Shown in pieces: positions 12,853 to 47,035 of a stretch of 64,000 nucleotides of DNA. A program made the position numbers and the translations under genes. The notes under the pieces are model-generated. The model did not search any database. It had not been told where the DNA came from and saw only the letters and a program-made list of their open reading frames with translations. The DNA lies in NCBI RefSeq assembly GCF_024281235.1, contig NZ_JAHWXY010000006.1, positions 1-64,000 of the forward strand. The letters are read 5' to 3'. The first letter of the stretch is position 1; each line of letters opens with the position of its first letter. The DNA comes from Shinella daejeonensis. GTDB taxonomy: Bacteria > Pseudomonadota > Alphaproteobacteria > Rhizobiales > Rhizobiaceae.

Positions 12853-14937
12853 ATGACGCGCTGGCGCAGGTTCGCCATCGGAGCGCTTGCCGGGGCGGCG
12901 GTGCTGGCCGCCCTTGCCTACGGTCTCGACCGAGCCGACCACGCCTTTCCGCCACCCGTCGAGGTGGCGGAAACCGTCTCGCGCACGGTACTCGACCGCA
13001 ACGGGCGGCTGCTGCGCGCCTTCTCGACACCGGATGGATACTGGCGGCTGAAGACGACGTCGGCGGATGTCGATCCGCAGTTCCTGCGCATGCTCGTCGC
13101 CTATGAGGACCGTCGCTTCCACGCGCATCACGGCATCGATCCGCTGGCGCTTCTGCGCGCCGCCGGGCAGTTCGCAACGCACGGACGCATCGTGTCGGGG
13201 GCCTCGACGCTCTCCATGCAGGTGGCGCGGCTGATCGAGCCGCGCGAAAGCCGGTCGATCCTCGCCAAGCTGCGCCAGATGGCGCGGGCGGTACAGATCG
13301 AGCGGCGGTATTCCAAGACGGAAATCCTCGACCTCTACCTGACGCTCGCGCCCTACGGCGGCAATATCGAAGGCGTGCGCGCGGCAAGTCTGGCCTGGTT
13401 CGGCAAGGAGCCCAAACGGCTGACGGTGGCCGAGGCGGCGCTGCTCGTCGCCCTGCCCCAACTGCCCGAAAAACGCCGGCCGGACCGGCACCGCGAGGCG
13501 GCCGAAAAGGCGCGCGACCGCGTCCTTGCGCGCCTTTCGGTCTCCGCCGTCATCGGCGACGGCGAGGCGGAACGCGCCGCCAGCGAGCCCGTGCCCGCAT
13601 ACCGGCGCCAGCTTCCGGCCTTCGCGCCGCATCTTTCCGAACTGGCGCTGCGCAAGGATCCGGGAGCCGCCGAGCACCCCACGACGCTCGACCGCAACGT
13701 GCAGGAAGCGCTGGAAACCGTGGCGCGCGAGGCGGCCGTGCGGATCGGGCCGAAGGTGTCCATCGCCATGATCATGGCCGACGCCCGCACGGGTGAGATC
13801 CTCGGCGAGGTCGGCTCCGCCGATTATTTCGATTCGCGCCGGGCCGGCTGGATCGACATGACACGGGTGCGCCGCTCGCCGGGCTCGGCGCTCAAGCCCT
13901 TCATCTACGGCCTCGCCTTCGAAGAGGGACTGGTGGCGCAGGAAACCATCGTCGAGGATCGACCCTCCGACTTTTCCGGCTACCGGCCGCGTAATTTCGA
14001 CATGCGCTACCAGGGCGACGTCAGCGTGCGCAAGGCGCTGCAAATGTCCCTGAACGTACCGGCCGTGCAGCTTCTGGAAGCGGTCGGGCCGACGCGGCTG
14101 ATGGTGCGCTTCCGGCGCGCGCAGGTCCGGCCCGACCTGCCGAAGGGCGAGACGCCGGGCCTTGCCATCGGGCTTGGCGGCGTCGGCATCACGCTGCACG
14201 ACCTGACGCAGCTCTATGCAGCGCTTTCCAATCGCGGCCGGCCGCTGCGGCTCGGGAACGGTATCGCCGAACAGCCGGGGCCGATCGAGGGCGAGCCGCT
14301 GCTCGATCCGGTGGCGGTATGGAACGTCTCGGACGTGCTGTCCGCAGTCGTGCCGCCGCGGGGAAGCCGCCGCCTCGGCATCGCCTACAAGACCGGCACC
14401 AGCTACGGCTATCGCGACGCGTGGTCGGTCGGCTACGACGGGCGGCATGTGCTCGGCGTCTGGGTGGGCCGCGCCGACAACGGCGCAGTGCCCGGCCTCA
14501 CCGGCTACGACACGGCCGCGCCGATCCTGTTCGAGGCTTTCGCGCAGGCCGGCGTCGCCATCACACCCTTTCCGCGCGCGCCGGCGGGTGCGCTGCGCAT
14601 CGCCCAATCGGAACTGCCGGCCAGCCTTCGCCGCTTCTCCACCACCGCAAGCGGCCTCGTCGCCACGCGCGCCCGCGAACCCGCGCCGCAGATCGTCTAT
14701 CCGCCGGAAGGCGCGCATGTGGAACTGAGCGGCGCAAGAGACGCGGACATCATGCCGCTGTCATTGAAGCTGCAAGGCGGCCGCGCGCCCTTCCGCTGGC
14801 TCGCCAACGGCAAGGTCCTGCCGGAGACCGTGCGGCGGCGCACGACGCAATGGACGCCGGAAGGCACGGGGTTCTCGACGCTGACCGTCATCGACGCCGC
14901 CGGGCGGGCGGCAAGCGTTCGCGTCTTCATCGAATAG
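12853..14937 (+). CDS. pbpC: Penicillin-binding protein 1C (peptidoglycan glycosyltransferase/transpeptidase)
   Basis: 694 residues. One N-terminal membrane helix (FAIGALAGAAVLAALAYGL). GT51 domain with catalytic VAYEDRRFHAHHGIDPLAL (Glu85) and GASTLSMQVARL. Transpeptidase domain with SALK near 345-348 (active Ser345), SLN in MSLNVPAVQ and KTGTS at 513-517. A C-terminal biPBP (PBP1C) domain follows (about 600-694). It polymerises and cross-links wall material; PBP1C enzymes are usually dispensable and poorly bound by penicillin. ATG 12853 starts 11 bp after the macroglobulin stop. The two genes form an operon. Confidence 0.96.
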   Translation: MTRWRRFAIGALAGAAVLAALAYGLDRADHAFPPPVEVAETVSRTVLDRNGRLLRAFSTPDGYWRLKTTSADVDPQFLRMLVAYEDRRFHAHHGIDPLALLRAAGQFATHGRIVSGASTLSMQVARLIEPRESRSILAKLRQMARAVQIERRYSKTEILDLYLTLAPYGGNIEGVRAASLAWFGKEPKRLTVAEAALLVALPQLPEKRRPDRHREAAEKARDRVLARLSVSAVIGDGEAERAASEPVPAYRRQLPAFAPHLSELALRKDPGAAEHPTTLDRNVQEALETVAREAAVRIGPKVSIAMIMADARTGEILGEVGSADYFDSRRAGWIDMTRVRRSPGSALKPFIYGLAFEEGLVAQETIVEDRPSDFSGYRPRNFDMRYQGDVSVRKALQMSLNVPAVQLLEAVGPTRLMVRFRRAQVRPDLPKGETPGLAIGLGGVGITLHDLTQLYAALSNRGRPLRLGNGIAEQPGPIEGEPLLDPVAVWNVSDVLSAVVPPRGSRRLGIAYKTGTSYGYRDAWSVGYDGRHVLGVWVGRADNGAVPGLTGYDTAAPILFEAFAQAGVAITPFPRAPAGALRIAQSELPASLRRFSTTASGLVATRAREPAPQIVYPPEGAHVELSGARDADIMPLSLKLQGGRAPFRWLANGKVLPETVRRRTTQWTPEGTGFSTLTVIDAAGRAASVRVFIE

Positions 14938-14961
14938 ACGCGTCCGCAAGCCCCGGCGGGG

Positions 14962-16116
14962 TCAGAGAAGGCCGCGCGCGGCGAGATTGCGCATCAAAGC
15001 CGCGACACCGAACGTCCACGGCGGGCATTCGGTGGACAGCCGCACCGTATTGACCAGAGACCCGAGGTCGCCATTGGCGATCGTCACCCGGTCGCCGATC
15101 TTGTGGGTGAAGCCTTCGCCGGGCGTATCCCGATCCTCGACCGGCGCAAAAAGCGTGCCCATGAAGAGCATGAAGCCGTCCGGATACTGATGATGCCGGC
15201 CGACGGTCTGGGCCACGAGGTCCAGAGGATCGCGGCTGATCTCGCGCATCGTGCTGCGGCCGTCGAGCACGAAGCCATCCTCGCCCTCGATCTTCAAGGT
15301 GAGATCGGCGGCGCGCACGTCGTCGAGCGAATAGGTCTCGTCGAACAGGCGGATGAAGGGGCCGATGGCGGCGGAGGCATTGTTGTCCTTCGCCTTGCCG
15401 AGCAGCAACGCCGAGCGTCCCTCCACATCGCGCAGATTGACGTCGTTGCCGAGTGTCGCGCCCTTGACGCGGCCGCGGCTGTCGACGGCGAGCACGACTT
15501 CGGGCTCCGGATTGTTCCATTTGGAAATCGGATGCAGGCCGACCGCCGCCCCCAAGCCCACGGCCGAAAGGACCGGGGCCTTGGTGAAGACCTCCGCATC
15601 CGGCCCGATGCCGACTTCGAGATATTGCGACCAGACGCCCTCCTCGATCAGCGCCGCCTTGACGCCGGCGGCCTCGGGCGAACCGGCCTTCAGATCACGC
15701 AGGCTGTCGCCGATGATGGCCGAGACCCGGCCCCTCACCTTCTCCGCCAGCGCCGGATTACCGGCCGCCTTCTCCTCGATCACGCGCTCGATCATCGAGC
15801 GGGCGAACGTGACGCCGCAGGCCTTGATCACCTGGAGATCGCAAGGGGCGAGAAGATGAAGGCGCTCGGGGTCCCCCGAAGCCTGCGCCGAGGCGGCGAG
15901 AACCGTATCGAGGCTTTCGAGCGCCTCGCCTTCGGCCGCGCGGACGAAGGCGAGCGGATCGTCCATTTCCAGGAGCGCGCTCATGGTGGGCGCCCTGGCG
16001 GAGGTGATGTCGAAAAGCCGGCCGTCCCGCAAAACCACGACCGCCGGTCCGCCGACCTGCGGCCGCCAGACCCGCCCGACAAAGGTTCCCCGCGCAAAAT
16101 CCGCCGCAACCGCCAT
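14962..16116 (-). CDS. Fumarylacetoacetate hydrolase family protein
   Basis: 384 residues, larger than simple FAH-domain proteins and close to the COG3970 group often linked to sugar-acid breakdown. The C-terminal FAH core shows GLHPISKWNNPEPEVVLAVD with the metal-binding Glu pair, GNDVNLRDVEGRSALLLGKA, and the late segment RHHQYPDGFMLFMGTLFAP. Members include fumarylacetoacetases, decarboxylases and 2-keto-3-deoxy-sugar-acid dehydratases, so the substrate is open. No neighbouring pathway genes help: it is convergent with pbpC and divergent from cydD. Confidence 0.85.
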   Translation of the reverse strand: MAVAADFARGTFVGRVWRPQVGGPAVVVLRDGRLFDITSARAPTMSALLEMDDPLAFVRAAEGEALESLDTVLAASAQASGDPERLHLLAPCDLQVIKACGVTFARSMIERVIEEKAAGNPALAEKVRGRVSAIIGDSLRDLKAGSPEAAGVKAALIEEGVWSQYLEVGIGPDAEVFTKAPVLSAVGLGAAVGLHPISKWNNPEPEVVLAVDSRGRVKGATLGNDVNLRDVEGRSALLLGKAKDNNASAAIGPFIRLFDETYSLDDVRAADLTLKIEGEDGFVLDGRSTMREISRDPLDLVAQTVGRHHQYPDGFMLFMGTLFAPVEDRDTPGEGFTHKIGDRVTIANGDLGSLVNTVRLSTECPPWTFGVAALMRNLAARGLL

Positions 16117-36034: not shown

Positions 36035-37027
36035 ATGGCAGTTCTCGTTACCGGCGGAGCCGGCTATATCGGCAGCCATATGGTGTGGGCGCTGATCGAC
36101 GCCGGAGAGGACGTCGTGGTCATCGACCGGCTGACCACGGGTTTCCGCTGGGCCGTCGCACCCGAGGCGCGCTTCTACGAGGGCGATATCGCCGACCGGG
36201 AGCTGCTGTCGACGATCTTCCGCGAGAACACGATCGATTCGATCATCCATTTCGCCGGCTCCATCGTCGTGCCCGAATCGGTGGCCGACCCGCTGGCCTA
36301 TTACGAGAACAACACGGTCAGGTCGCGCGCCCTGATCGCCGCCGCCGTCGAGGCCGGCATTCCGCATTTCGTCTTTTCCTCCACCGCCGCCGTCTACGGG
36401 ACGCCGGACAGCGCCGATCCGGTCAGGGAAGGCGCGGCGCTGCGCCCCGAATCGCCCTATGGCTCCTCGAAGCTGATGACCGAGATCATGCTGCGCGACA
36501 CCGCGGCCGCCCATGACCTCACCTATTCGGTCCTGCGCTATTTCAACGTCGCCGGCGCCGACCCGCGCGGGCGGACCGGCCAGTCGACGGCCGGCGCGAC
36601 CCATCTCATCAAGGTGGCGAGCGAGGCAGCCCTTGGAAAGCGCGATGGCATGGTGGTCTTCGGAACCGACTACGACACGCGGGACGGCACCTGCATCCGC
36701 GATTACATCCATGTCTCCGATCTGGCGGCCGCCCATCTCAACGCCTTGCAGCGCATGCGCGCCGGCGAAGGCTCCATCGTCGCCAACTGCGGCTATGGCC
36801 GCGGCTTTTCGGTCCTGGAAGTGCTCGATCAGGTGAAAGCGGTTTCCGGCCGTGATTTTGCCGTGCGCATCGCCGGCCGCCGGCCGGGCGACGCGGTCTC
36901 GATCGTCGCCGACCCCTCGGTGGCGAGGAGCGCGCTCGGCTGGACGCCGAAACATGACGACCTCGCCTTCATCGTGCGCACCGCGCTCGACTGGGAGGAT
37001 CACCTCGGCAAGCGCAACATGCGATAG
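36035..37027 (+). CDS. galE: UDP-glucose 4-epimerase
   Basis: 330 residues, short-chain dehydrogenase fold. NAD-binding VLVTGGAGYIGSHMVWALID, catalytic FSSTAAVYG and YGSSK (Tyr-x3-Lys), then LRYFNVAGADPRGRTGQ and RDYIHVSDLAAAHL. Interconverts UDP-glucose and UDP-galactose for lipopolysaccharide and exopolysaccharide. It lies 4-5 kb from the polysaccharide genes but on its own transcript. Convergent with the chorismate mutase gene. Confidence 0.95.
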   Translation: MAVLVTGGAGYIGSHMVWALIDAGEDVVVIDRLTTGFRWAVAPEARFYEGDIADRELLSTIFRENTIDSIIHFAGSIVVPESVADPLAYYENNTVRSRALIAAAVEAGIPHFVFSSTAAVYGTPDSADPVREGAALRPESPYGSSKLMTEIMLRDTAAAHDLTYSVLRYFNVAGADPRGRTGQSTAGATHLIKVASEAALGKRDGMVVFGTDYDTRDGTCIRDYIHVSDLAAAHLNALQRMRAGEGSIVANCGYGRGFSVLEVLDQVKAVSGRDFAVRIAGRRPGDAVSIVADPSVARSALGWTPKHDDLAFIVRTALDWEDHLGKRNMR

Positions 37028-37039
37028 GGCGAAACGGCC

Positions 37040-37339
37040 CTATTCTTCGCCGAGCACCGATTTCTCGTGGTCGATCGCATGCTCGATGAGCCTGCCCCAC
37101 AGCGCGTCGTAGAAATCCCCGTCGAGACCGTGGCGGACGGCGTTCGCCCGCGCGTTGTCGCGAACCTTGCGCACCCGTTCGGGCACGTCGGCGGGGATGC
37201 CGAGCCCGGCCTTGATCTCCGCCGCACGCCCGATATAGCTCCAGCGCTCGGCAAGAAGGGTCATCAGTTCCTGATCGACCCGGTCGATGTTTTCCCGAAT
37301 GTCCGCCATCGTCGTGCATTCAGCCGCAATCTTTGCCAT
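37040..37339 (-). CDS. Chorismate mutase (AroQ class, monofunctional)
   Basis: 99 residues, all-alpha AroQ type. Key features: IRENIDRVDQELMTLLAERW (Arg and the D-E-L pattern of helix 1), then GRAAEIKAGLGIP with the catalytic Lys, and a C-terminal FYDALWGRLIEHAIDHE. It would turn chorismate into prephenate, the substrate for the monofunctional PheA found at 3.3-4.2 kb. Isochorismate-pyruvate lyases share this fold, so a salicylate role is possible but less likely. ATG 37339 has GGAG 6-7 nt upstream; a second in-frame ATG lies at 37309. Confidence 0.9.
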   Translation of the reverse strand: MAKIAAECTTMADIRENIDRVDQELMTLLAERWSYIGRAAEIKAGLGIPADVPERVRKVRDNARANAVRHGLDGDFYDALWGRLIEHAIDHEKSVLGEE

Positions 37340-37408
37340 TCCGGTCTCCCTTCTTGCGGCAGGGGATAGCAGAGGACGTTTTGCGGGGGAAGATGCCGAC
37401 GCGTCGCA

Positions 37409-37456
37409 GGCCGGCAGGAAAGGCCATATGCGGGCCGGCAGGAAAGGCCACATGCA
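37409..37456. repeat. Two tandem 24-bp units in an intergenic spacer
   Basis: Units 37409-37432 and 37433-37456 share GGCCGGCAGGAAAGGCCA and differ at only two positions. They lie in the 264-bp spacer between the chorismate mutase start and the M20 amidohydrolase stop. No gene or other signal was seen in this spacer. Confidence 0.75.
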
Positions 37457-37603
37457 GGCCCGGGGCCTGGCGAAAGGAGGGTGCGGTCCTGTCTTTCACC
37501 ATCGGGCCTGCATGCTGGCCGAGGCAGAACCTAGACGCGCAAGCTGGCGCGAGGCTGGAAGCACCTCGTCAGGAAAAGGCCTGCGAAAACATCGGGTTCC
37601 CGC

Positions 37604-38773
37604 TCAGGCGCCACGCAGGTAATGTTCCGTCAGTTCCGTCCAGAAAGCAGCGCCCACCGGCAGCAGGTCGTCGTTGAAATTATAGCCCGGATGATGGAGC
37701 GGGCGATCGTTTTCGCCGGTCCGTCCGCCGAGGAAGAAATAGGAGCCGGGCCGCTCCTTCAGCATATAGGCGAAATCCTCGCTGCCCATGAAGGGGCGGG
37801 CAAGGTCGACCACCTTGTCCGCACCGGCAAAACGGATGGCAAGGTCGCGCAGGAGATCCGTTTCCGCCTTGTGGTTGATGGTCGCATCGTAACTGCGTTC
37901 GTAGGCGACGGTCGCCGTCATCCCGTAGCTGTCGGCCTGCCGCTCCGCAATGAGGCGGATACGGCGCTCAAGCTCGTCGCGCACCGCCGGATCGAAGGAG
38001 CGGATACCGACGGTGATTTCGGCCCGCTCCGGAATGATGTTGCTCGCCGAGCCGGCATGGAAGGCGCCCACCGTCACCACGGTCGGGTCGAGCGGGTGGA
38101 TATTGCGCGAGACCACGGTCTGGAGCGCCATGACGATCGAGGCGCCCGCCACGACGGGATCGGCGGTCTCCTGCGGTTCCGCCCCATGGCCGCCGCGGCC
38201 GTTCACCGTGATCCTGGCCTCGTCCACCGCCGCCATGATCGGCCCTTCGCGCAAGGCGAACTGGCCAAAAGGCAGGCCCGGCTCGTTATGAAGCGCGAAG
38301 ACCGCGTCGCAGGGAAATTTTTCGAAAAGTCCTTCCTCGACCATCATCCGTGCGCCGCCGACGTTCTCTTCCGCCGGCTGGAAGATCAGATGTACGGTGC
38401 CGTCGAAATTCCGCCTCTCGGCGATGGCCTTCGCCGCTCCGAGCAGCATCGCGGTGTGGCCGTCGTGTCCGCAGGCGTGCATCTTGCCCGGGATCCTGCT
38501 GGCATAGTCGAGCCCCGTCTCCTCCTGGATCGGCAAGGCGTCCATATCGGCGCGAATGCCGATCGACCGCCGGCCGGAGCCATTGGAAAGCGTCGCGACG
38601 ACACCGGTCTTCGCCAGGCCGCGCGTGACCTTGTAGCCGTAGCTTTCCAGCTGCCGCGCTACCAGATCGGAGGTGCGCACCTCTTCGAGTCCCAGTTCGG
38701 GATGGGCGTGGAGATCGCGGCGGATCGCCACCATCCCGGTCATCGCATTGCGGAGATTTTCGTGAATCGTCAT
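37604..38773 (-). CDS. M20 family amidohydrolase (hippurate hydrolase/aminoacylase type)
   Basis: 389 residues. M20D metal-site motifs: IRRDLHAHPELGLEEVRTSD, IRADMDALPI, KMHACGHDGHTAML, IFQPAEENVGGARMM, ALHNEPGLPFG and MGSEDFAYML. The dimerisation domain shows GRGGHGAEPQETADPVV. Such enzymes cut N-acyl amino acids. It is the last gene of the amino-acid ABC importer operon, 1 bp after the permease stop (TGACATG). It probably releases the imported amino acid from an acylated form; the substrate is an inference. Confidence 0.93.
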   Translation of the reverse strand: MTIHENLRNAMTGMVAIRRDLHAHPELGLEEVRTSDLVARQLESYGYKVTRGLAKTGVVATLSNGSGRRSIGIRADMDALPIQEETGLDYASRIPGKMHACGHDGHTAMLLGAAKAIAERRNFDGTVHLIFQPAEENVGGARMMVEEGLFEKFPCDAVFALHNEPGLPFGQFALREGPIMAAVDEARITVNGRGGHGAEPQETADPVVAGASIVMALQTVVSRNIHPLDPTVVTVGAFHAGSASNIIPERAEITVGIRSFDPAVRDELERRIRLIAERQADSYGMTATVAYERSYDATINHKAETDLLRDLAIRFAGADKVVDLARPFMGSEDFAYMLKERPGSYFFLGGRTGENDRPLHHPGYNFNDDLLPVGAAFWTELTEHYLRGA

Positions 38774-38774
38774 G

Positions 38775-39593
38775 TCAGGCACCACGCGTCGGAATCCGGT
38801 TTTCGAACCAGCGGAAAGCCACCACCAGAACGGCGGTGAGGCACAGATAGATGAGCGCCAGCAACAAGAGCGGCTCATAGGTGATATAGGTCTCCTGCCG
38901 CACCTTCGAAATGATCGCATAGACATCGATCACGGTGATGGTCGCGACAAGCGGCGTCGCCTTGAGTTGCAGCACCATCTCGCCGTTCAGGGTCGGCAGC
39001 GCCCGATGCACGGCACGCGGCAGCCAGATGCGGCGAAAGACGGTGAGGCGGCTCATGCCGAAGGCCCGGGCCGCCTCCAGTTCTCCCCGCGGCACGCCGG
39101 CGAAGGCGCCGCGCATCACTTCGCCCTCGTAAGCCGCGAAGGAAATGGTCAGCGCCGCGACGCCGTAGGGCCAGGCTTCCCTCAGGTAGGGCCAGAGGAA
39201 GGAATTGCGGATTTCCGGAAACTGCGGAAACAGCGAGCCGAGCCCGTAATAGAGCAGCCAGAGCTGGAGAAGCAGCGGCGTTCCGCGAATGGTGGTGCAG
39301 AAGCCGCGCGCCAGCATCCTGAGAGGCCAGGGACCCGTCACCTGCACGAGACCGATCGGCAGGGCGAGGAGAAAGCCGAGCACCGATGTGCTGACGAGCA
39401 TCAGCAGGGTGACGCCGACACCATAGGCAAGTCTGCCGGCATAGCGGGGCACCCAGTCCCAGCGCATGAACCAGACAGCGCAGAACACCACCAGAAGGGC
39501 GATGACGATCAGCACGATGCGATGCGGCTTGAAAAACCCCTCCCGTGACGGGAGTTCGGTGATCGCCGTCGCCGAAACGGTCTCGTCGCTCAT
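38775..39593 (-). CDS. Amino acid ABC transporter permease (HisM-like)
   Basis: 272 residues. Cytoplasmic N-terminus of about 25 residues, then five to six helices. The conserved EAA loop is GELEAARAFGMSRLTVFRRI, and TTIRGTPLLLQLWLLYYGL is typical of the polar amino acid uptake family. ATG 39593 overlaps the stop of the upstream permease (ATGA). Pairs with it to form the membrane channel of a basic amino acid-type importer. Confidence 0.92.
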   Translation of the reverse strand: MSDETVSATAITELPSREGFFKPHRIVLIVIALLVVFCAVWFMRWDWVPRYAGRLAYGVGVTLLMLVSTSVLGFLLALPIGLVQVTGPWPLRMLARGFCTTIRGTPLLLQLWLLYYGLGSLFPQFPEIRNSFLWPYLREAWPYGVAALTISFAAYEGEVMRGAFAGVPRGELEAARAFGMSRLTVFRRIWLPRAVHRALPTLNGEMVLQLKATPLVATITVIDVYAIISKVRQETYITYEPLLLLALIYLCLTAVLVVAFRWFENRIPTRGA

Positions 39594-40321
39594 GAGGCGT
39601 GCCCCGCAAGGCCGCGCCGGTAGCGGCGTTCGATCACACCGATCACCATATTGGAAAACAGCGTCAGCAGCAGGTAGAGCACACCCGCCGCGCAGAAGAA
39701 CAGCAGGTAGGACTTCGTCGCGCCCGCCGCCTGCCGCGTCACCAGCGTCAGTTCGCTGAATCCGACGACGGCCAGAAGCGCCGTGTCCTTGGTGGCGATC
39801 AGCCAGAGATTGGAGAGGCCGGGAATGGCATGCGGCAGCATCGCCGGCAGCGTGACGCGGCGCAGGATCTGGCCCGGCGACATGCCGTAGGCGCGCGCCG
39901 CCTCGATCTGGCCGGTGGGAACCGCCCGGATCGCGCCGCGCAGCACCTCCGTCGAATAGGCCCCCTGGACGACGCCGATGACGAAAATGCCGGCCGCAAG
40001 GCCGCTGATATCGACCGATCCGTAGCCAAGGGCGAGGGACAGGCGGTTCAGGAGATCCGTACCGGCGTAATAGAGGATCAGGATCAGCACCAGTTCGGGG
40101 ACCGCGCGCACCACCGTCGTATAGACTTCCAGAAGATCCTTCAGCACCGGGCCGCCATAGAGCTTGCCCAACGCGCCGCCGGTGCCGAGCGTGAGGCCGA
40201 GCGCATAGCCGCCGATGGCGATCTTGATGGAATTGGCGAAGCCCGTCAGAAGCACCCCGCCCCAGCCCGGCGGGTCGAGAGCCAGAAGGCTCCAGTTGAT
40301 CAGCGATCCGGCGTCGGCCAT
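39590..40321 (-). CDS. Amino acid ABC transporter permease (HisQ-like)
   Basis: 243 residues, five helices. EAA loop GQIEAARAYGMSPGQILRRV and VVRAVPELVLILILYYAGTD mark the HisQ/OccQ type. Overlaps the next permease by 4 nt. It is separated from the binding protein gene by a hairpin with a T-run that probably lowers permease expression relative to the binding protein. Confidence 0.92.
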   Translation of the reverse strand: MADAGSLINWSLLALDPPGWGGVLLTGFANSIKIAIGGYALGLTLGTGGALGKLYGGPVLKDLLEVYTTVVRAVPELVLILILYYAGTDLLNRLSLALGYGSVDISGLAAGIFVIGVVQGAYSTEVLRGAIRAVPTGQIEAARAYGMSPGQILRRVTLPAMLPHAIPGLSNLWLIATKDTALLAVVGFSELTLVTRQAAGATKSYLLFFCAAGVLYLLLTLFSNMVIGVIERRYRRGLAGHAS

Positions 40322-40340
40322 GACATTGCGTCCGTTTCAG

Positions 40341-40371
40341 AAAAAGGCCGGCGGCGAACCACGCCGCCGGC
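40341..40371 (-). terminator. Intra-operon hairpin between binding protein and permease genes
   Basis: Perfect 10-bp GC stem (40347-40356 with 40362-40371), 5-nt loop, followed on the minus strand by CTTTTT. It looks like a partial terminator or mRNA-end stabiliser of the kind that lets a binding protein be made in excess over its permeases. Confidence 0.75.
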
Positions 40372-40390
40372 ACCGGGATTGCGGAAGCGA

Positions 40391-41173
40391 TCAGCCGCCG
40401 AAGATGTCGAAATCGAAATACTTCTTGGAGAATTCGTCATAGACGCCGTTTTCGTGGATCGCCTTGATGCCGGCGTTGACCTTCTCCTTGAGTTCGGTAT
40501 CGCCCTTGCGCAGGCCGACGCCGACGCCGGGACCCAGGATTTCCTCATCCTCCTGCACATTGCCCTTATGCTCGCAGCAGGCGGCCCCCTGCTCGCTCTT
40601 CAGGAAGGCGTCAAGCGCGATGGAATCGGCCTGAACCGCATCGATGCGTCCGGCGGCAAGGTCGTTGTTGGCCTCGTCCTGCGTCTGATATTCCTTAACG
40701 GTGGCCCCGTTCGCGCCGAAATACTTGTTGGCATAAACCTGGTGGACGGTGGCGACCTGAACGCCGATCGTCTTGCCGGAGAGCCCTTCGGGCGTCGCCT
40801 CGAAATCCTCGCCCTTCGGACCGATGACGCCGGTCGGCGTGTTGTAATACTTGTCGGAGAAATCGATGGTCTGGAGCCGTTCGGCGGTGATCGACATCGA
40901 ACCGATGATCATGTCGATCTTGCCGGAGGTCAGCGCCGGAATGATGCCGTCCCAGGCGACCGGCGTGATGACGCAATCGAGCTTGGCCTCGGCGCAGAGC
41001 GCCTGCATGAACTCCACTTCCCAGCCCTCCCAGTTGCCGGAGGCGTCGGGCGAGGTAAACGGCGGATAGGGTTCGGCCGCAAAGCCGACCTTCACTTCCG
41101 CAGCACTCGCCCCGGTGGCGGCGGCAAACCCGAGCGCGGCGGCAAGGGCGATTGTCTTCAAGGCAGTCTTCAT
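40391..41173 (-). CDS. Amino acid ABC transporter substrate-binding protein (basic amino acid type)
   Basis: 260 residues. Signal peptide of about 24 residues ending ATGASA-AEV. Family 3 binding-protein motifs: FAAEPYPPFTSPDASGNWEG, DMIIGSMSITAERLQTIDFS and GKTIGVQVATVHQVYANKYF. The pattern WEVEFMQALC and the SMSITAERL loop resemble lysine/arginine/ornithine and octopine binding proteins. The pair CC in GAACCEHKG is unusual and may form a disulfide. The neighbouring arginine-type enzymes support a guanidino or basic amino acid ligand. Confidence 0.92.
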   Translation of the reverse strand: MKTALKTIALAAALGFAAATGASAAEVKVGFAAEPYPPFTSPDASGNWEGWEVEFMQALCAEAKLDCVITPVAWDGIIPALTSGKIDMIIGSMSITAERLQTIDFSDKYYNTPTGVIGPKGEDFEATPEGLSGKTIGVQVATVHQVYANKYFGANGATVKEYQTQDEANNDLAAGRIDAVQADSIALDAFLKSEQGAACCEHKGNVQEDEEILGPGVGVGLRKGDTELKEKVNAGIKAIHENGVYDEFSKKYFDFDIFGG

Positions 41174-41199
41174 GATTTTCCCTCTGTCGGTTTCTGTTT

Positions 41200-41973
41200 C
41201 TAGTGAATGGAGCTGATGAATTTCCGGAGCCGTTCCGACCGCGGCGCGTCGAAGATCGCATCGGGCGGACCTTCCTCCTCGACCATCCCGTCGGCGAGGA
41301 AGACGACATGACTGGCGACATTGCGGGCGAATTTCATCTCATGGGTGACGAGGATCATCGTCCGTTTCTCCTGCGCCAGATCGCCGATCACGCCCAGAAC
41401 CTCGCCCACCAGTTCCGGATCCAGCGCGGAGGTCGGCTCGTCGAACAACATGACATGGGGCTGGATCGCCAGCGCCCGCGCAATCGCCGCGCGCTGCTGC
41501 TGACCGCCGGAAAGAAAGGCCGGATAGGCGTCGCGCTTTTCGAACAGGCCGACGCGGCGCAACAATCCTTCGGCCCGCTCCACCGCCTCGCCCTTCGAAA
41601 GGCCGAGCACATGGACGGGCGCCTCGATCACATTCTGGAGAATGGTCATGTGCTGCCAGAGATTGAAGCTCTGGAACACCATGCCGAGACGGGAGCGGAT
41701 GCGTTGCACCTGCCTGCGATCGGCAGGGGTCTGACCGCCGTGACCGTCCGGTTTCATGGAAATCGTCTCGCCATGGATCGCCACGGAGCCGGCGGATGGC
41801 AGTTCCAGCATGTTGATACAGCGCAGGAACGTCGATTTCCCCGAACCCGAGCCACCGATTATGGCGATCACATCGCCCTCACGCGCCGTCAGCGATACGC
41901 CTTTCAGGACTTCCAGCGGCCCGAAGCGCTTGCGCAGCCCCCGGACGGCGATGGCCTCGGCGCGCTCCGTCAT
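41200..41973 (-). CDS. Amino acid ABC transporter ATP-binding protein (HisP-like)
   Basis: 257 residues. Walker A IIGGSGSGKSTFLRCINMLE, Q-loop VFQSFNLWQHMTILQNV, signature LSGGQQQRAAIARALA, Walker B VMLFDEPTSALDPELV and switch VTHEMKFAR. The NMLELPSAG loop is typical of the HisP/OccP subfamily. First gene of the leftward importer operon; divergent from the DDAH-like gene with a 211-bp shared promoter region. Confidence 0.94.
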   Translation of the reverse strand: MTERAEAIAVRGLRKRFGPLEVLKGVSLTAREGDVIAIIGGSGSGKSTFLRCINMLELPSAGSVAIHGETISMKPDGHGGQTPADRRQVQRIRSRLGMVFQSFNLWQHMTILQNVIEAPVHVLGLSKGEAVERAEGLLRRVGLFEKRDAYPAFLSGGQQQRAAIARALAIQPHVMLFDEPTSALDPELVGEVLGVIGDLAQEKRTMILVTHEMKFARNVASHVVFLADGMVEEEGPPDAIFDAPRSERLRKFISSIH

Positions 41974-42095
41974 CGCCAACGCACCGTGCACGCATGGAAA
42001 AAGGCTGCATGGGCCATGCCAAATCTCCCCTTTTTTTCTTGTCCATGCGGGCATCTTCGGCCCGTCATGTCGTTCCAGCACAGCCATGGTTGCAC

Positions 42096-42123
42096 TTGTG
42101 AAGAAATTATTCAAGCGTATAAT
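42096..42123 (+). promoter_or_regulatory. Probable sigma-70 promoter for the DDAH-like/aru operon
   Basis: Perfect TATAAT at 42118-42123, with TTGTGA at 42096-42101 as the -35 at 16-bp spacing. It lies 61 bp before the DDAH-like ATG in the spacer shared with the importer operon. Confidence 0.5.
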
Positions 42124-42184
42124 AACGGCAGCCGGCGAATTTCCCGCCGCCCTCCTCACACCGCCAATCCACCAGGAGCATCGC

Positions 42185-43063
42185 ATGGCCACCTACGGTT
42201 CACAGGAAATGTCCGCCCCTCTGCTGCGCGTTCTGATGCGTCGTCCGGGCGCAAGCCTCCAGACGGCCGATCCGGCCCGGTGGCACTACGGACCGACGTT
42301 CGACGGCGCGCGGGCCGTCAGCCAATATGCGGCCTTCGCCCGGCTGGTGGAGACGTCAGGGGCGGAAATCCTCTGGCTGGAAGATGGAGGCGACGGTCTT
42401 GCCGATGCGATGTTCACCCATGACCCGTCTTTGATGTCGGACCACGGGGCGATCCTGCTGCGCATGGGCAAGCCCCTGCGCGCGGGAGAGACGGACCTGC
42501 ACGAGAAAGCCTATCGCGAACGCCAGATCCCCATTCTCGGCCGGATCGCCGCGCCGGGCACGGTGGAGGGCGGCGACTGCATCTGGCTCGACGCCAAGAC
42601 GCTGATCGTCGGGCGCGGCGTGCGCACCAACCAGTCGGGCATCGACCAGCTTGCCGCGCTGCTTGCGCCGCATGGGGTGACGGTTCTCGGTTACGACCTG
42701 CCGCTGTGGCAGGGCGAGGAGGCCTGCCTGCATCTGATGAGCGTGATCAGCCCGCTTGCCGACGATCTCGCGCTGGTCTTCGCGCCGCTCCTGCCGGCGG
42801 CGTTCTACCAGTTGCTGAAACAGCGCGGCATCCGGCTGATCGAGGCGCCGGCGGATGAGTTCCACGCCAGCAACGGCCTCTCGCTCAATGTGCTGCCGAC
42901 CCGGCCCCATGAGGTGATCATGGTCGCCGGCTTCCCGAAGACCCGGGCAGCGATGGAAGAGGCCGGCTGCACCGTCGAGACGTTCGAGGCGGATGCGCTG
43001 TGCATCGCCTGCGAGGGCGGCCCGACGTGCCTCACCCGGCCGGTGCTGCGCCGCGCCGCGTAA
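42185..43063 (+). CDS. DDAH/arginine-deiminase-like guanidino hydrolase
   Basis: 292 residues, amidinotransferase (pentein) fold. Catalytic features: EGGDCIWL (Glu128-Asp131), CLHLMSVI with His183, and the nucleophile Cys282 in EGGPTCLTRPV. The length and the E-H-C triad fit dimethylarginine dimethylaminohydrolases and related arginine-modifying hydrolases, not the longer ADI of about 410 residues. It would turn methylarginine (or arginine) to citrulline plus amine. The exact substrate is inferred. It begins an operon with the TetR regulator and the AruH/AruI-like genes; GGAG lies just before ATG 42185. Confidence 0.85.
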   Translation: MATYGSQEMSAPLLRVLMRRPGASLQTADPARWHYGPTFDGARAVSQYAAFARLVETSGAEILWLEDGGDGLADAMFTHDPSLMSDHGAILLRMGKPLRAGETDLHEKAYRERQIPILGRIAAPGTVEGGDCIWLDAKTLIVGRGVRTNQSGIDQLAALLAPHGVTVLGYDLPLWQGEEACLHLMSVISPLADDLALVFAPLLPAAFYQLLKQRGIRLIEAPADEFHASNGLSLNVLPTRPHEVIMVAGFPKTRAAMEEAGCTVETFEADALCIACEGGPTCLTRPVLRRAA

Positions 43064-43098
43064 GCCGGAACCCGCCGCACGAAAGGAGATATCGCGTG

Positions 43099-43722
43099 AT
43101 GCCGCGCCGGACCTTCCATCGCGCCCCCGAGGCCGAACGCCGCCACGATCTGATCGAGGCGACGCTCGACTGCATCGCGGAATCCGGCCTCGAAGGCGCG
43201 ACCGTCCGGCAGATCGCCGACCGCGCCGGCGTCACCCCCGGCCTTATCCGGCATTATTTCCATTCCAAGGAACAGATCCTTCAGGAAGCCTATCGGGTCG
43301 TCATCGCCCGGCTTACCGAAAAGGCCTCGCGGGTGGCCGGCAATCCGGACGAGCGGCTGCGGGAGTTCATCGTCATCAACCTGACGGAGCCCGTCGCCAA
43401 CAGCCGCAGCCTGTCGCTCTGGGCCTCCTTCATCAGCCGGGTCAGCGTCGACCCCGAACTGGCGGCGATCCACCGGGAGGGGTATCTGGGCTTTCGCGAC
43501 GCGCTGGAGGCGCTGCTTGCCGAATTCCTGGCGGCCCGCGGCGAGGACGCCTCGCCCGCACGCTGCCGCAGCCTCTCCATCGCCATCAACGGCCTGCTCG
43601 ACGGCCTCTGGCTGGAGGGCTGCCTTGCCGGTGAGCTTTTCGGGGAAAGCGAACTGGTCTCCATCGCGCTCGCCACCGTGGAAGCGCTTCTCGGTCTCCG
43701 CCTGACGGCGGATTCCGCATAA
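43099..43722 (+). CDS. TetR family transcriptional regulator (BetI-like)
   Basis: 207 residues. N-terminal HTH: RRHDLIEATLDCIAESGLEG, ATVRQIADRAGVTPGLIRHY, FHSKEQILQEAY. The C-terminal domain resembles BetI-type regulators (VNLTEPVA-like VINLTEPVANSRSLSLWASF). Between the DDAH-like gene and the aminotransferase, it probably controls this locus. A strong AAGGAG SD (43083-43088) favours GTG 43096 by spacing; ATG 43099 is one codon later, so the start is uncertain by 3 bp. Confidence 0.9.
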   Translation: MPRRTFHRAPEAERRHDLIEATLDCIAESGLEGATVRQIADRAGVTPGLIRHYFHSKEQILQEAYRVVIARLTEKASRVAGNPDERLREFIVINLTEPVANSRSLSLWASFISRVSVDPELAAIHREGYLGFRDALEALLAEFLAARGEDASPARCRSLSIAINGLLDGLWLEGCLAGELFGESELVSIALATVEALLGLRLTADSA

Positions 43723-43752
43723 ACCACACCTGTCATCTTGCGGAGAAGGACG

Positions 43753-44943
43753 ATGCGCTACGCCTCCATCACAGACCGGCTCGCCAATCTCGGGGCCGAA
43801 AAATGGGCGGTCCACACCGAGGCCCGGCACCGGAAGGACATGGGCCTGCCGATCATCGAGCTGACCATCGGCGAGCCGGACGTGCCGCCGGACGAGAGCC
43901 TTCTCGCCGAAGCCACGCGCGCCATGCATGCCGGCCGCTACCGTTATTCCAACGGTCGCGGCGAGCCTTCCGTCGTCGATGCGCTGGTGCGCAAGTACCG
44001 CACCCGCCGCTCCGACGTGACGGCGGATAACGTGCTGTGCTTTCCCGGAACCCAGACCGCCCTTTTCGCGGCGATGCTGGGGCTGGTCGAGGCCGGCGAC
44101 GCGGTCCTCGTCGGCGATCCCTATTACGCCACCTACGAAGGCGTCATCGCCGCCACCGGCGCGCAACGCATCACCGTGCCGCTGCGGCCGGAGAACGGCT
44201 TCCACATGAAGGCGGCCGATCTGGAAGCGGCGATCACGCCGCAATGCCGCGTCCTGCTTCTCAACACGCCGCACAATCCGACCGGCGCGGTGCTTTCGGC
44301 GGCGGAAATCTCGAAGATCGGCGCGATCTGCCGCAAGCACGACCTCTGGATCGTCTGCGACGAAGTTTACGAACAGCTGGTCTTCGACGGCGTCTTCGCC
44401 TCGCCCTTCGACGACCCCGAACTCGCCGAGCGCACCATCGTCGTCTCCTCCATCTCGAAATCCCACGCCGCACCGGGCTTCCGCAGCGGCTGGGCGATCG
44501 GGCCGGCCGAGTTCTGCACGCGCCTGCTGTCCGTCTCCGAGACGATGCTGTTCGGCGGCCAGCCCTTCATCGCCGATATGACGGCCTATGCGCTCGACAA
44601 CCGGATCCCCACCGCCGCGCATATGCGCGACACCTACAGGCGGCGGGCGCAGCGCTTCGCCGCCGCGCTTGAGCCGGTGCCGGGCCTGTCGCCGCTTCCC
44701 CCGGAGGCCGGGATGTTCATCGTCGTTAACGTCTCCGGCACCGGCATGAACGGCGAGGCCTTCGCCTGGCGGCTGCTGCGCGAGGAGGGCGTGGCGGTGA
44801 TGCCGGGTTCCTCCTTCGGCGAAGGGGCGGAAAACTTCATCCGCCTCAGCCTCACCGTCCCGGACGACCATATCGACGAGGCCTGCCGGCGCATCGCCAG
44901 CCTCGCCACCCGATCCACCCTGCCGCAGGAGCGCCGCGCATGA
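43753..44943 (+). CDS. PLP-dependent aminotransferase, AruH-like (arginine:pyruvate type)
   Basis: 396 residues, class I/II aminotransferase. Signatures: ELTIGEPDVPPDESL, YRYSNGRGEPSVVDALVRKY, LLLNTPHNPTGAVLS, IVCDEVYEQLVFDG and the PLP lysine in SSISKSHAAPGFRSGW. It resembles arginine:pyruvate transaminase AruH more than AspC in the SKSHA loop and the adjacent AruI-like decarboxylase. Expected product: 5-guanidino-2-oxopentanoate. ATG 43753 preferred over TTG 43738; GGAGAAGGA is upstream. Its stop overlaps the next gene by ATGA. Confidence 0.82.
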   Translation: MRYASITDRLANLGAEKWAVHTEARHRKDMGLPIIELTIGEPDVPPDESLLAEATRAMHAGRYRYSNGRGEPSVVDALVRKYRTRRSDVTADNVLCFPGTQTALFAAMLGLVEAGDAVLVGDPYYATYEGVIAATGAQRITVPLRPENGFHMKAADLEAAITPQCRVLLLNTPHNPTGAVLSAAEISKIGAICRKHDLWIVCDEVYEQLVFDGVFASPFDDPELAERTIVVSSISKSHAAPGFRSGWAIGPAEFCTRLLSVSETMLFGGQPFIADMTAYALDNRIPTAAHMRDTYRRRAQRFAAALEPVPGLSPLPPEAGMFIVVNVSGTGMNGEAFAWRLLREEGVAVMPGSSFGEGAENFIRLSLTVPDDHIDEACRRIASLATRSTLPQERRA

Positions 44944-46547
44944 CCGCCAGAACCGTTGGAGAAGTCCTCGTCGACCTGCTGGAGGCCAATGGCGTCGATA
45001 TCGTGTTCGGCATTCCGGGCGTACATACGGTCGAGCTTTATCGCGGGCTCGCCGCCTCGAAGATCCGCCACATCACCCCCCGCCACGAACAGGGCGCGGG
45101 GTTCATGGCCGATGGCTATGCGCGCGTCTCCGGCAAGCCCGGCGTCGCGCTCGTCATCACCGGGCCCGGTCTCACCAACACGATCACCGCGATGGCGCAG
45201 GCCCGGCAGGATTCGGTGCCCATGCTGGTCATTTCCGGCGTCAACCGGCGCTGCTCGCTCGGCCACGGCCACGGGCTGCTGCACGAGCTGCCCGACCAGC
45301 TGGGGATGATGAAGTCGCTCGCCCTCTATGCGCACACGCTGCTCAATCCCACCGACCTGCCGGCGGTGATCGAACGCGCCTTCTCCGTGCTGCTTTCGGG
45401 CCGGCCGGGACCCGTTCATATCGAGATACCGACCGATGTGATGGCCGCCAAGATCGATCCCGGCCCCTTCCGGGCCGCCACCGCCACCCGCCCGCGCGCC
45501 GACGCCGAGACACTCCAGCGCGCCGCCGTCCTCCTCGCCGACGCCCGGCATCCGGTCATTCTTCTCGGCGGCGGCGCGATCACCGCCGAAGACGAAATCC
45601 GCTTGCTTGCCGAGCGGATCGACACGCCGGTCGTGACGACGGTCAATGCCCGCGGCATGTTCGCCGGCCATCCGCTGCGCGTGCCGGCAAGCCCCAGCCT
45701 GAAGGCGGTGCGCCGCCTGCTCGCCGAGGCCGACCGGGTGCTGGCCATCGGCACGGAAATGGGCCCCACCGACTACGACATCAACGTCGACGGCGACTTC
45801 CCTGACCTCCGGTCGCTGATCCGCATCGATATCGACGCGGCACAGCTTGCGCGCGACAGCCGGGCGACGCTCTCGATCCTTTCGAGCGCAAAGGCGGCGG
45901 CCGCCGGCATCTCCGGCTTCCTGGAGGGGCATCGCGCAGCAAGCGACGGCGCGCAACGCGCCGAAACCGCGCGCAAGGCCAGCTGGGCCGAGCTGACCGA
46001 CAAGATGCGCACCGAGATCGGCATCATCGACACCATCTACCGCACGCTGCCGACGGCGATCATCGTCGGCGATTCGACGCAGGCGATCTATGCCGGCAAC
46101 TACTATTGCGATCCACCGCGGCCGCGGAGCTGGTTCAATGCCGCCACCGGCTACGGTGCGCTCGGCTATGCGCCGCCGGCGGCCGTGGGCGCCGCGCTTG
46201 CCGCGCCCGACGCGACGATCGTCTGCCTCGTCGGCGACGGCGGCTTCCAGTTCTCGCTGGCGGAGATCGGGGCGGCGGCGGATGCCGGTGCGCGCGTCGT
46301 CTTCCTCGTCTGGAACAACGACGGCTATCAGGAGATCGAGGCCTATATGCTGGAAGCCGGCATCGTGCCGGAAGGCGTGAAACCCTCCGCGCCGGATTTC
46401 CTCGCCATCGGCGCGGCCTACGGCCTTCCGGCCGAACGGCTCGCCGATGTGGCCGGGCTGCCGGAAGCGCTGGAACGGGCCGCCGCGCTAAACCGCCCCA
46501 GCCTTATCGAGATCCATCAGGAAAAGACCGCCGGCGCAACGGCCTGA
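44940..46547 (+). CDS. Thiamine-diphosphate enzyme, AruI-like 5-guanidino-2-oxopentanoate decarboxylase
   Basis: 535 residues, POX/ALS fold. N-terminal pyrimidine-binding domain: DIVFGIPGVHTVELYRGL and the activating Glu in ITPRHEQGAGFMADGYARVS. GHGHGLLHELPDQLGMMKSL is a feature of the AruI group. ThDP-binding motif: VGDGGFQFSLAEIGAAADAG then WNNDGYQEIE. Acetolactate synthases share the fold, but no small subunit gene is nearby and the genetic partner is an AruH-like transaminase. Expected product: 4-guanidinobutyraldehyde. Last gene of the operon, ended by a strong hairpin. Confidence 0.83.
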   Translation: MTARTVGEVLVDLLEANGVDIVFGIPGVHTVELYRGLAASKIRHITPRHEQGAGFMADGYARVSGKPGVALVITGPGLTNTITAMAQARQDSVPMLVISGVNRRCSLGHGHGLLHELPDQLGMMKSLALYAHTLLNPTDLPAVIERAFSVLLSGRPGPVHIEIPTDVMAAKIDPGPFRAATATRPRADAETLQRAAVLLADARHPVILLGGGAITAEDEIRLLAERIDTPVVTTVNARGMFAGHPLRVPASPSLKAVRRLLAEADRVLAIGTEMGPTDYDINVDGDFPDLRSLIRIDIDAAQLARDSRATLSILSSAKAAAAGISGFLEGHRAASDGAQRAETARKASWAELTDKMRTEIGIIDTIYRTLPTAIIVGDSTQAIYAGNYYCDPPRPRSWFNAATGYGALGYAPPAAVGAALAAPDATIVCLVGDGGFQFSLAEIGAAADAGARVVFLVWNNDGYQEIEAYMLEAGIVPEGVKPSAPDFLAIGAAYGLPAERLADVAGLPEALERAAALNRPSLIEIHQEKTAGATA

Positions 46548-46556
46548 ACGGGAAAG

Positions 46557-46584
46557 GCCCGGGGGGCGCAACGACCCCGGGCCT
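46557..46584. terminator. Bidirectional terminator between aruI-like gene and mscL
   Basis: GGCCCGGGG (46557-46565) pairs perfectly with CCCCGGGCC (46576-46584). Short T-containing tails follow on both strands (TGAGTTTCC on plus, TTTCCC on minus). It separates two convergent genes. Confidence 0.75.
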
Positions 46585-46603
46585 GAGTTTCCGGCCGATG
46601 GCC

Positions 46604-47035
46604 TCAGGCGATCGGACGCGCCTTCAGGAGATCGCGGATTTCGGCGAGAAGCTGCACGTCCTCCGCCGGCGGGGCGGCCTCGACGGCCTTTTCCTTCTCG
46701 AGAGAGGAACGCATGCGATTCACGCCCTTGATCATCAGGAAAATGATCCATGCGAGAATGAGGAAGTTGATGAAGACGGTGATGAAATTGCCGTAAGCGA
46801 AAACCGCGCCCTGCTCGCGGGCGGCCGCAAGCGAGGTCGCCGTCACATTGCTCGAAAGCGCAATGAAGTAGTTCGAGAAATCGAAGCCGCCGCCCGTCAG
46901 CGCGCCGACGATAGGCATGACCAGATCATTGACGACGGAATCGACGATCTTGTTGAAGGCCGCGCCGATAATGACGCCCACCGCCAGGTCCATGACATTG
47001 CCGCGGGCGATAAATTCCTTGAACTCGTTGAGCAT
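46604..47035 (-). CDS. mscL: Large-conductance mechanosensitive channel
   Basis: 143 residues. MscL signature [20 protein letters not shown] followed by [20 protein letters not shown] (TM1 pore helix), TM2 [20 protein letters not shown] and a charged C-terminal helix [15 protein letters not shown]. Opens under membrane tension to release solutes in hypo-osmotic shock. Single gene. Confidence 0.97.

Follow-up and report, generated by a model that had tools for sequence, protein, structure and literature searches.

The arginine transaminase pathway of Pseudomonas aeruginosa is encoded by aruH and aruI, and enzymes of the same kinds are on record from Sinorhizobium meliloti. A passage of PMC7268258 reports that S. 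meliloti AspC (SMc02262), 40% identical to AruH, uses arginine, agmatine, ornithine and putrescine as amino donors for the transamination of pyruvate, and that IlvB1 (SMc02263), whose gene adjoins aspC, shows sevenfold more activity on 5-amino-2-oxopentanoate; entries in PMC4941405 and PMC2848018 list SMc02259 as a lysine-arginine-ornithine (LAO)-binding protein and as an amino-acid transporter component, respectively. The present analysis concerns a comparable locus of the soil bacterium Shinella daejeonensis (4.66-Mb assembly in 37 contigs), located at positions 37604-46547 of a 64,000-nucleotide stretch of contig NZ_JAHWXY010000006.1, hereafter the window. Open reading frames (ORFs) and family searches identify nine genes, arranged as a leftward importer operon (HisP-like ATPase, LAO/HisJ-like binding protein, HisQ, HisM and an M20 amidohydrolase) and a rightward enzyme operon (a DDAH-like hydrolase, a TetR regulator, an aminotransferase and a thiamine diphosphate (ThDP) enzyme), with an additional promoter/operator-like element between them. 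This inventory, including the triad E128, H183 and C282 of the DDAH-like protein, bears out that of an earlier note made from the DNA alone; the 34-bp element, a version of the locus lacking the DDAH-like gene and the S. meliloti biochemistry were absent from that note. The whole is a real, conserved and modular arginine-family locus. Its AruH/AruI half is, by analogy with the S. meliloti relatives, already known in function and not new, and what is added to it is the DDAH-like protein, which on sequence grounds constitutes a separate, uncharacterized clade.

Named genomes scanned with the DDAH-like protein as query yielded 203 relatives, the best 80 of which were kept; 76 of these 80 loci have sufficient flanking sequence and are termed complete. 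Locus genes were counted at no less than 45% identity, on the expected strand and within 6 kb, and neighboring ORFs were called roughly (longest-first or by codon-position G+C). The ATPase gene is found in all 76 complete loci, being divergent next to the DDAH-like gene in 75 and on its other side in one (L098), and is accompanied by the binding protein and both permeases in 75, TetR in 75, the aminotransferase in 71, the ThDP enzyme in 60 and M20 in 51, with all nine genes together in 49. The closest named loci among these best 80 belong to Shinella and Rhizobium. Since gene order and divergence recur across loci, the gene set is not a chance assembly. The earlier note had proposed looking for conserved co-occurrence across Rhizobiaceae, and this is confirmed in an even draw of 151 genomes of the family: 41 encode a DDAH-like ortholog (at least 58% identity, the next matches being at most 33%), and an AruI-like gene lies within 6 kb of 32 of these 41. 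When AruI-like genes are counted per genome at 55% identity or more, 35 genomes have both, 6 only the DDAH-like gene, 10 only the AruI-like gene and 100 neither (Fisher p 3e-19, uncorrected for relatedness). Of 385 genomes sampled across the class, 18 match the DDAH-like protein at E 1e-30 or better, the source genome included.

The DDAH-like protein has 292 residues, and its AlphaFold model (pLDDT 92.4) displays the DDAH/arginine deiminase fold. In P. aeruginosa DDAH numbering, D60, F63, D66, R85, E114, R132, H162 and C249 are kept in 81/81 close orthologs; of these we take D60 to bind the alpha-amino group and R85 and R132 the carboxylate. The clade deviates from each described family at defined positions. 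All 81 orthologs have FTHD/FTQD and HLM/HLL in place of the FVED and HLK motifs of P. aeruginosa DDAH. Of the guanidinium-binding Asp pair of arginine deiminase (FTRD, HLD), the first is kept, whereas the second gives way to Met in 79 orthologs and to Leu in 2. The CtlX citrullinases are defined by Asn at both substrate-binding Asp positions, whereas D80 is retained in 81/81 (both motif definitions from PMC9007349). The dimethylargininase equivalog models NF045660 and NF045658 reach only 94.5 of 340 and 82.2 of 450 bits. Thus, the earlier designation as DDAH-like stands as a family resemblance with an intact triad, whereas identity with DDAH does not, the scores being far under cut-off and two active-site motifs differing. 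Current annotations of the clade vary among dimethylargininase, arginine deiminase and amidinotransferase. The catalytic Cys is absent in three clade members at 58-65% identity, in loci L185 (60%), L186 (58%) and L187 (65%), where it is replaced by Gly (GGLGGLVC, GGPTGLVC) with another Cys three residues on; these proteins are possibly inactive or altered enzymes.

The gene complement varies module by module. The form of the locus without the DDAH-like gene occurs in Sinorhizobium-like genomes. In L174-L178 the importer, a TetR-type gene, the aminotransferase and the ThDP gene are kept and the DDAH-like gene is absent (the TetR frame of L174 was uncalled, yet a TetR match is found there), and M20 is also present in L174-L177 of these. 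Conversely, L184 and L188 retain the DDAH-like gene and the importer without TetR, aminotransferase and ThDP genes, L185 and L186 retain the DDAH-like gene and the aminotransferase, and L181 and L182 lack both of the latter. The aminotransferase is missing from L092, L106, L109 and L111, of which three are named Mesorhizobium and L092 is a Rhizobiales isolate in which a gene of the malate/lactate dehydrogenase family takes the position of M20. On an importer-protein tree of 89 loci (84 of the 92 candidates have the DDAH-like gene, and most were chosen for having it), the distributions require 6 changes for M20, 5 for the DDAH-like gene (at least 4 by starred branches), 5 for the ThDP gene and 2 each for the aminotransferase and TetR. 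Across 58 loci, pairwise distances of the DDAH-like protein correlate with those of the aminotransferase (0.92), TetR (0.91) and ThDP enzyme (0.86) more closely than with those of the binding protein (0.75), so that the DDAH-like gene mostly travels with the enzyme operon. The association of arginine-family uptake, AruH/AruI-type enzymes and a guanidino-type hydrolase as one unit, as the earlier note had it, is therefore supported, whereas a single two-branch pathway as an obligatory unit is contradicted by the separate gain and loss of the DDAH-like, M20, aminotransferase and ThDP genes. Two peculiarities of individual loci may be recorded here. L179, which has no DDAH-like ortholog, encodes another DDAH-family protein (14654-15481; 28% identical to that of the window) with the FVED motif of P. 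aeruginosa DDAH, its gene occupying the position of M20 as the last of the importer operon. In L188 (6437-8309) and L184 (7798-8628), the gene after the DDAH-like one is of the class II aldolase family, and L188 also has a Rieske oxygenase.

The placement of the AruH/AruI pair was judged by the cut-off of NF005712 (5-guanidino-2-oxopentanoate decarboxylase) and by synteny. The ThDP protein clearly exceeds this cut-off, and 7 further matches in the source genome score at most 276.4 bits. The aminotransferase stays below the cut-off of every one of the 25 top NCBIfam models listed for it; the protein is 74% identical to one of Sinorhizobium psoraleae, and several close relatives are named arginine:pyruvate transaminase by JGI. 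The aminotransferases of the DDAH-free L174-L176 are 84-88% identical to the S. psoraleae protein, and the order binding protein, ATPase, TetR, aminotransferase, ThDP enzyme in these loci fits the numbering SMc02259-63. Judging from these locus numbers and the DDAH-free relatives, the AruH/AruI and importer part of the window probably corresponds to the S. meliloti AspC/IlvB1 locus. Because the assayed IlvB1 prefers 5-amino-2-oxopentanoate (a result from the same passage of PMC7268258), decarboxylation at this locus need not be restricted to guanidino compounds: the enzyme type assigned earlier holds, its guanidino specificity is doubtful, and the "AruI" of the window may, by analogy, be an ornithine-side decarboxylase. 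Of the next enzymes, which the earlier note had found wanting, ureohydrolases are encoded elsewhere in the genome: of five arginase-family matches, the three identified are two agmatinase-type enzymes and an arginase whose gene adjoins that of an ornithine aminotransferase. Two ornithine-cyclodeaminase-family matches are also present.

The best solved relatives of the binding protein are LAO and HisJ. Relative to LAO, Y14, S70 and R77 are kept in all 80 aligned rows and S72 in 79, D30 is replaced by Glu in all 80, and D11 is lost; D161 is kept as judged from the phmmer alignment, the LAO row of the 80-row alignment being a site mutant. These residues would fit a basic alpha-amino acid without singling out a particular one.

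The gap between the ATPase and DDAH-like genes contains the 34-bp element GCACTTGTGAAGAAATTATTCAAGCGTATAATAA, comprising CTTGTG, a 17-bp spacer and TATAAT, which overlaps an imperfect dyad with the best forms ACACTTGC-N11-GCAAGTGT. With up to 10 substitutions allowed, it is found in 69 of the 80 DDAH-bearing named loci and in 7 of 10 searched loci without a DDAH-like ortholog (L174-L179 and L181, not L180, L182 or L183); it is missing from L184-L188, of which L184 and L188 also have no TetR. Pairing of the dyad arms averages 5.1 of 8 positions, compared with 2.2 once these sites are shuffled, and we infer that the TetR protein, which scores under the BetI cut-offs (100.5 of 201.3 and 95.3 of 118 bits), would bind this dyad as its operator. 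Genome-wide, the only exact match to the dyad pattern is that of the window; with up to one mismatch there are 15 rows, two being the window's own, against 29 for the reversed-pattern control, so that no wider regulon is indicated. One of these sites, about 0.35 kb before an agmatinase-type gene, is attributed to chance, lying inside a reverse-strand ORF (L219:2066-3082) that is LysR-type by eye. Searches of 36900-47000 for a guanidine riboswitch or other RNA gave no Rfam match at the gathering threshold.

These observations are best accommodated by a locus under TetR control that takes up and transaminates amino acids of the arginine family, with an optional guanidine-hydrolase module for substituted arginine, a reading to which we give belief and doubt in equal measure. 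Synteny, residues, fold and the conserved promoter/dyad constitute its sequence-based support, and the activities demonstrated for S. meliloti AspC and IlvB1 its biochemical support. The LAO-type importer would bring in arginine, ornithine or modified arginines, and the M20 enzyme, in its predicted role, would free N-acylated forms. The AspC/AruH-type enzyme would then convert arginine or ornithine with pyruvate to the 2-oxo acid, and the IlvB1/AruI-type enzyme the latter to 4-guanidino- or 4-amino-butyraldehyde, the route being finished by presumed dehydrogenases and ureohydrolases encoded elsewhere. The DDAH-like enzyme would attack, through Cys282, the substituted guanidino group of a free alpha-amino acid to give a thiouronium adduct and would release an amine and citrulline, making arginines that are unhandled by the transaminase route usable; our best guess for the substrate is an N-substituted arginine, with methylarginine as the first candidate. 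Met or Leu in place of the second guanidinium Asp of arginine deiminase, like Lys in P. aeruginosa DDAH, fits a substituted guanidine. The neighborhoods of certain relatives may be counted in favor of an arginine derivative: L195 (41% identity) is adjoined by a HisPQM-type importer, ornithine aminotransferase and arginase, L190 (61%) lies beside a trimethyllysine-dioxygenase-like protein (248 bits, under the cut-off of 268) and an isochorismatase-family protein, and L098 (Paracoccus, 72%) combines an importer with CtlX (409.8 bits, cut-off 334), two proteins of the M20 family and one of DDAH type (201.7 of 450 bits). Several observations weigh on the other side. Relatives at 36-46% identity in other families adjoin genes that are unconnected with arginine, for instance those of formate-tetrahydrofolate ligase, dimethylsulfoniopropionate lyase and dihydroxy-acid dehydratase. 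As for the operator, all 11 named loci without the element (six from Ancylobacter and a related genome, the four lacking the aminotransferase, and L098) retain a TetR ortholog, and L077, counted as having no TetR, retains the element with 7 substitutions.

Other activities of the DDAH-like enzyme deserve consideration. It would be a compact arginine deiminase without the helical insert, converting free arginine to citrulline and ammonia as a second exit for imported arginine, only if the replacement of the second guanidinium Asp in every ortholog and an Asp at the alpha-amino site, as in DDAH, were compatible with that activity; with arginine deiminase models at 62.1 and 57.6 bits where 414 and 489.1 are called for, we regard this as unlikely. 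The conserved changes in the guanidine pocket (E65 to His/Gln, K164 to Met/Leu) and the presence of a closer DDAH relative alongside it in Paracoccus would suit a modified arginine spared by enzymes like P. aeruginosa DDAH, for example symmetric dimethylarginine, N-hydroxyarginine, canavanine or homoarginine; what these substitutions do is itself predicted from sequence, and we consider this possibility quite unlikely. Action downstream, on 4-guanidinobutyrate or 2-oxoarginine from the transaminase branch, would account for the frequent adjacency to the aminotransferase and ThDP genes noted above for the complete loci, but the enzyme keeps what we take to be its alpha-amino and carboxylate ligands throughout, L184 and L188 combine it with the importer in the absence of both those genes, and ureohydrolases are available elsewhere in the genome; this appears very improbable. 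A more far-reaching and doubtful proposal is that, next to DDAH and arginine deiminase, the 292-residue clade constitutes a guanidino hydrolase of a third kind, specific for a modified arginine outside the reach of both (e.g. symmetric dimethylarginine), and serves as a plug-in widening an arginine-transaminase operon to modified arginines of host or soil.

Under the preferred reading, in which the hydrolase acts on a substituted arginine, an uncharacterized guanidino-hydrolase clade is tied to a defined operon whose pathway is in part proven, and its substrate bears on whether methylated arginines serve as nutrients for soil and plant-associated bacteria; moreover, some rhizobial enzymes labeled "AruI" may in fact be ornithine-side decarboxylases. 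The coordinates of all features are collected in the table. A short direct repeat, GCCGGCAGGAAAGGCC, is seen by eye at 37404-37460, upstream of the end of the M20 gene.

Table. Features of the S. daejeonensis locus, in window coordinates, with the supporting matches
Feature	Position	Strand	Evidence
M20 amidohydrolase, final importer-operon gene	37604-38773	-	TIGR01891 382.8 bits, cut-off 153.75
HisM-type permease	38775-39593	-	PF00528; HisM and ArtM models under curated cut-offs
HisQ-type permease	39590-40321	-	PF00528; HisQ model 170.4 bits, under cut-off 319
LAO/HisJ-like periplasmic binding protein	40391-41173	-	phmmer vs LAO structures E about 1e-47; TIGR01096 229.4, under cut-off 256.35
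HisP-type ATPase	41200-41973; alternative upstream starts 41979/41991	-	HisP model 349 bits, under cut-off 466
Promoter-like element with imperfect dyad, candidate TetR operator	42092-42125	+	Recurrence across loci
DDAH/arginine deiminase-like guanidino hydrolase, separate clade	42185-43063	+	PF02274 58.7 bits, cut-off 22.8; triad; fold
TetR regulator, BetI-type C-terminal domain	43099-43722	+	PF00440, PF13977
AruH/AspC-type arginine:pyruvate aminotransferase	43753-44943	+	PF00155
AruI/IlvB1-type ThDP 2-oxo acid decarboxylase	44940-46547	+	NF005712 772.3 bits, cut-off 500

The combination as a whole, which the earlier note could not match to a described system, is in part a known one. A DDAH-like gene within an AruH/AruI locus was not found described in the literature as searched by titles and abstract openings, with subscription journals mostly outside coverage, whereas the AruH/AruI half with its importer is known from S. 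meliloti. The S. meliloti aspC-ilvB1 locus (SMc02259-SMc02263) appears to share the LAO-type importer, TetR, the arginine:pyruvate transaminase, the AruI-like decarboxylase and, as far as locus numbers and L174-L176 indicate, their order, and would by the same token differ in having no DDAH-like gene between promoter and TetR; a database protein named Sinorhizobium sp. BG8 is an ortholog of the DDAH-like protein (87%). With the aruH-aruI genes of P. aeruginosa the locus shares the two kinds of enzyme, the ThDP enzyme passing NF005712, and differs in their linkage to a HisPQM importer, M20, TetR and a DDAH-like gene, as well as in the preference of the S. meliloti relative of its ThDP enzyme for the ornithine-derived oxo acid. 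P. aeruginosa DDAH (3rhy/1h70) has the same fold, Glu-His-Cys triad and alpha-amino-acid-binding residues as the DDAH-like protein, from which it differs in sequence (27% identity by Foldseek), in having FVED/HLK where the latter has FTHD/HLM, and in length (254 versus 292 residues). Arginine deiminase, in which an Asn occupies the alpha-amino site and a helical insert is present, shares the FTxD motif and resembles the protein of the window in its N- and C-terminal segments; the latter is distinguished by its 292 rather than about 410 residues, by HLM instead of HLD and by the Asp of its alpha-amino site.

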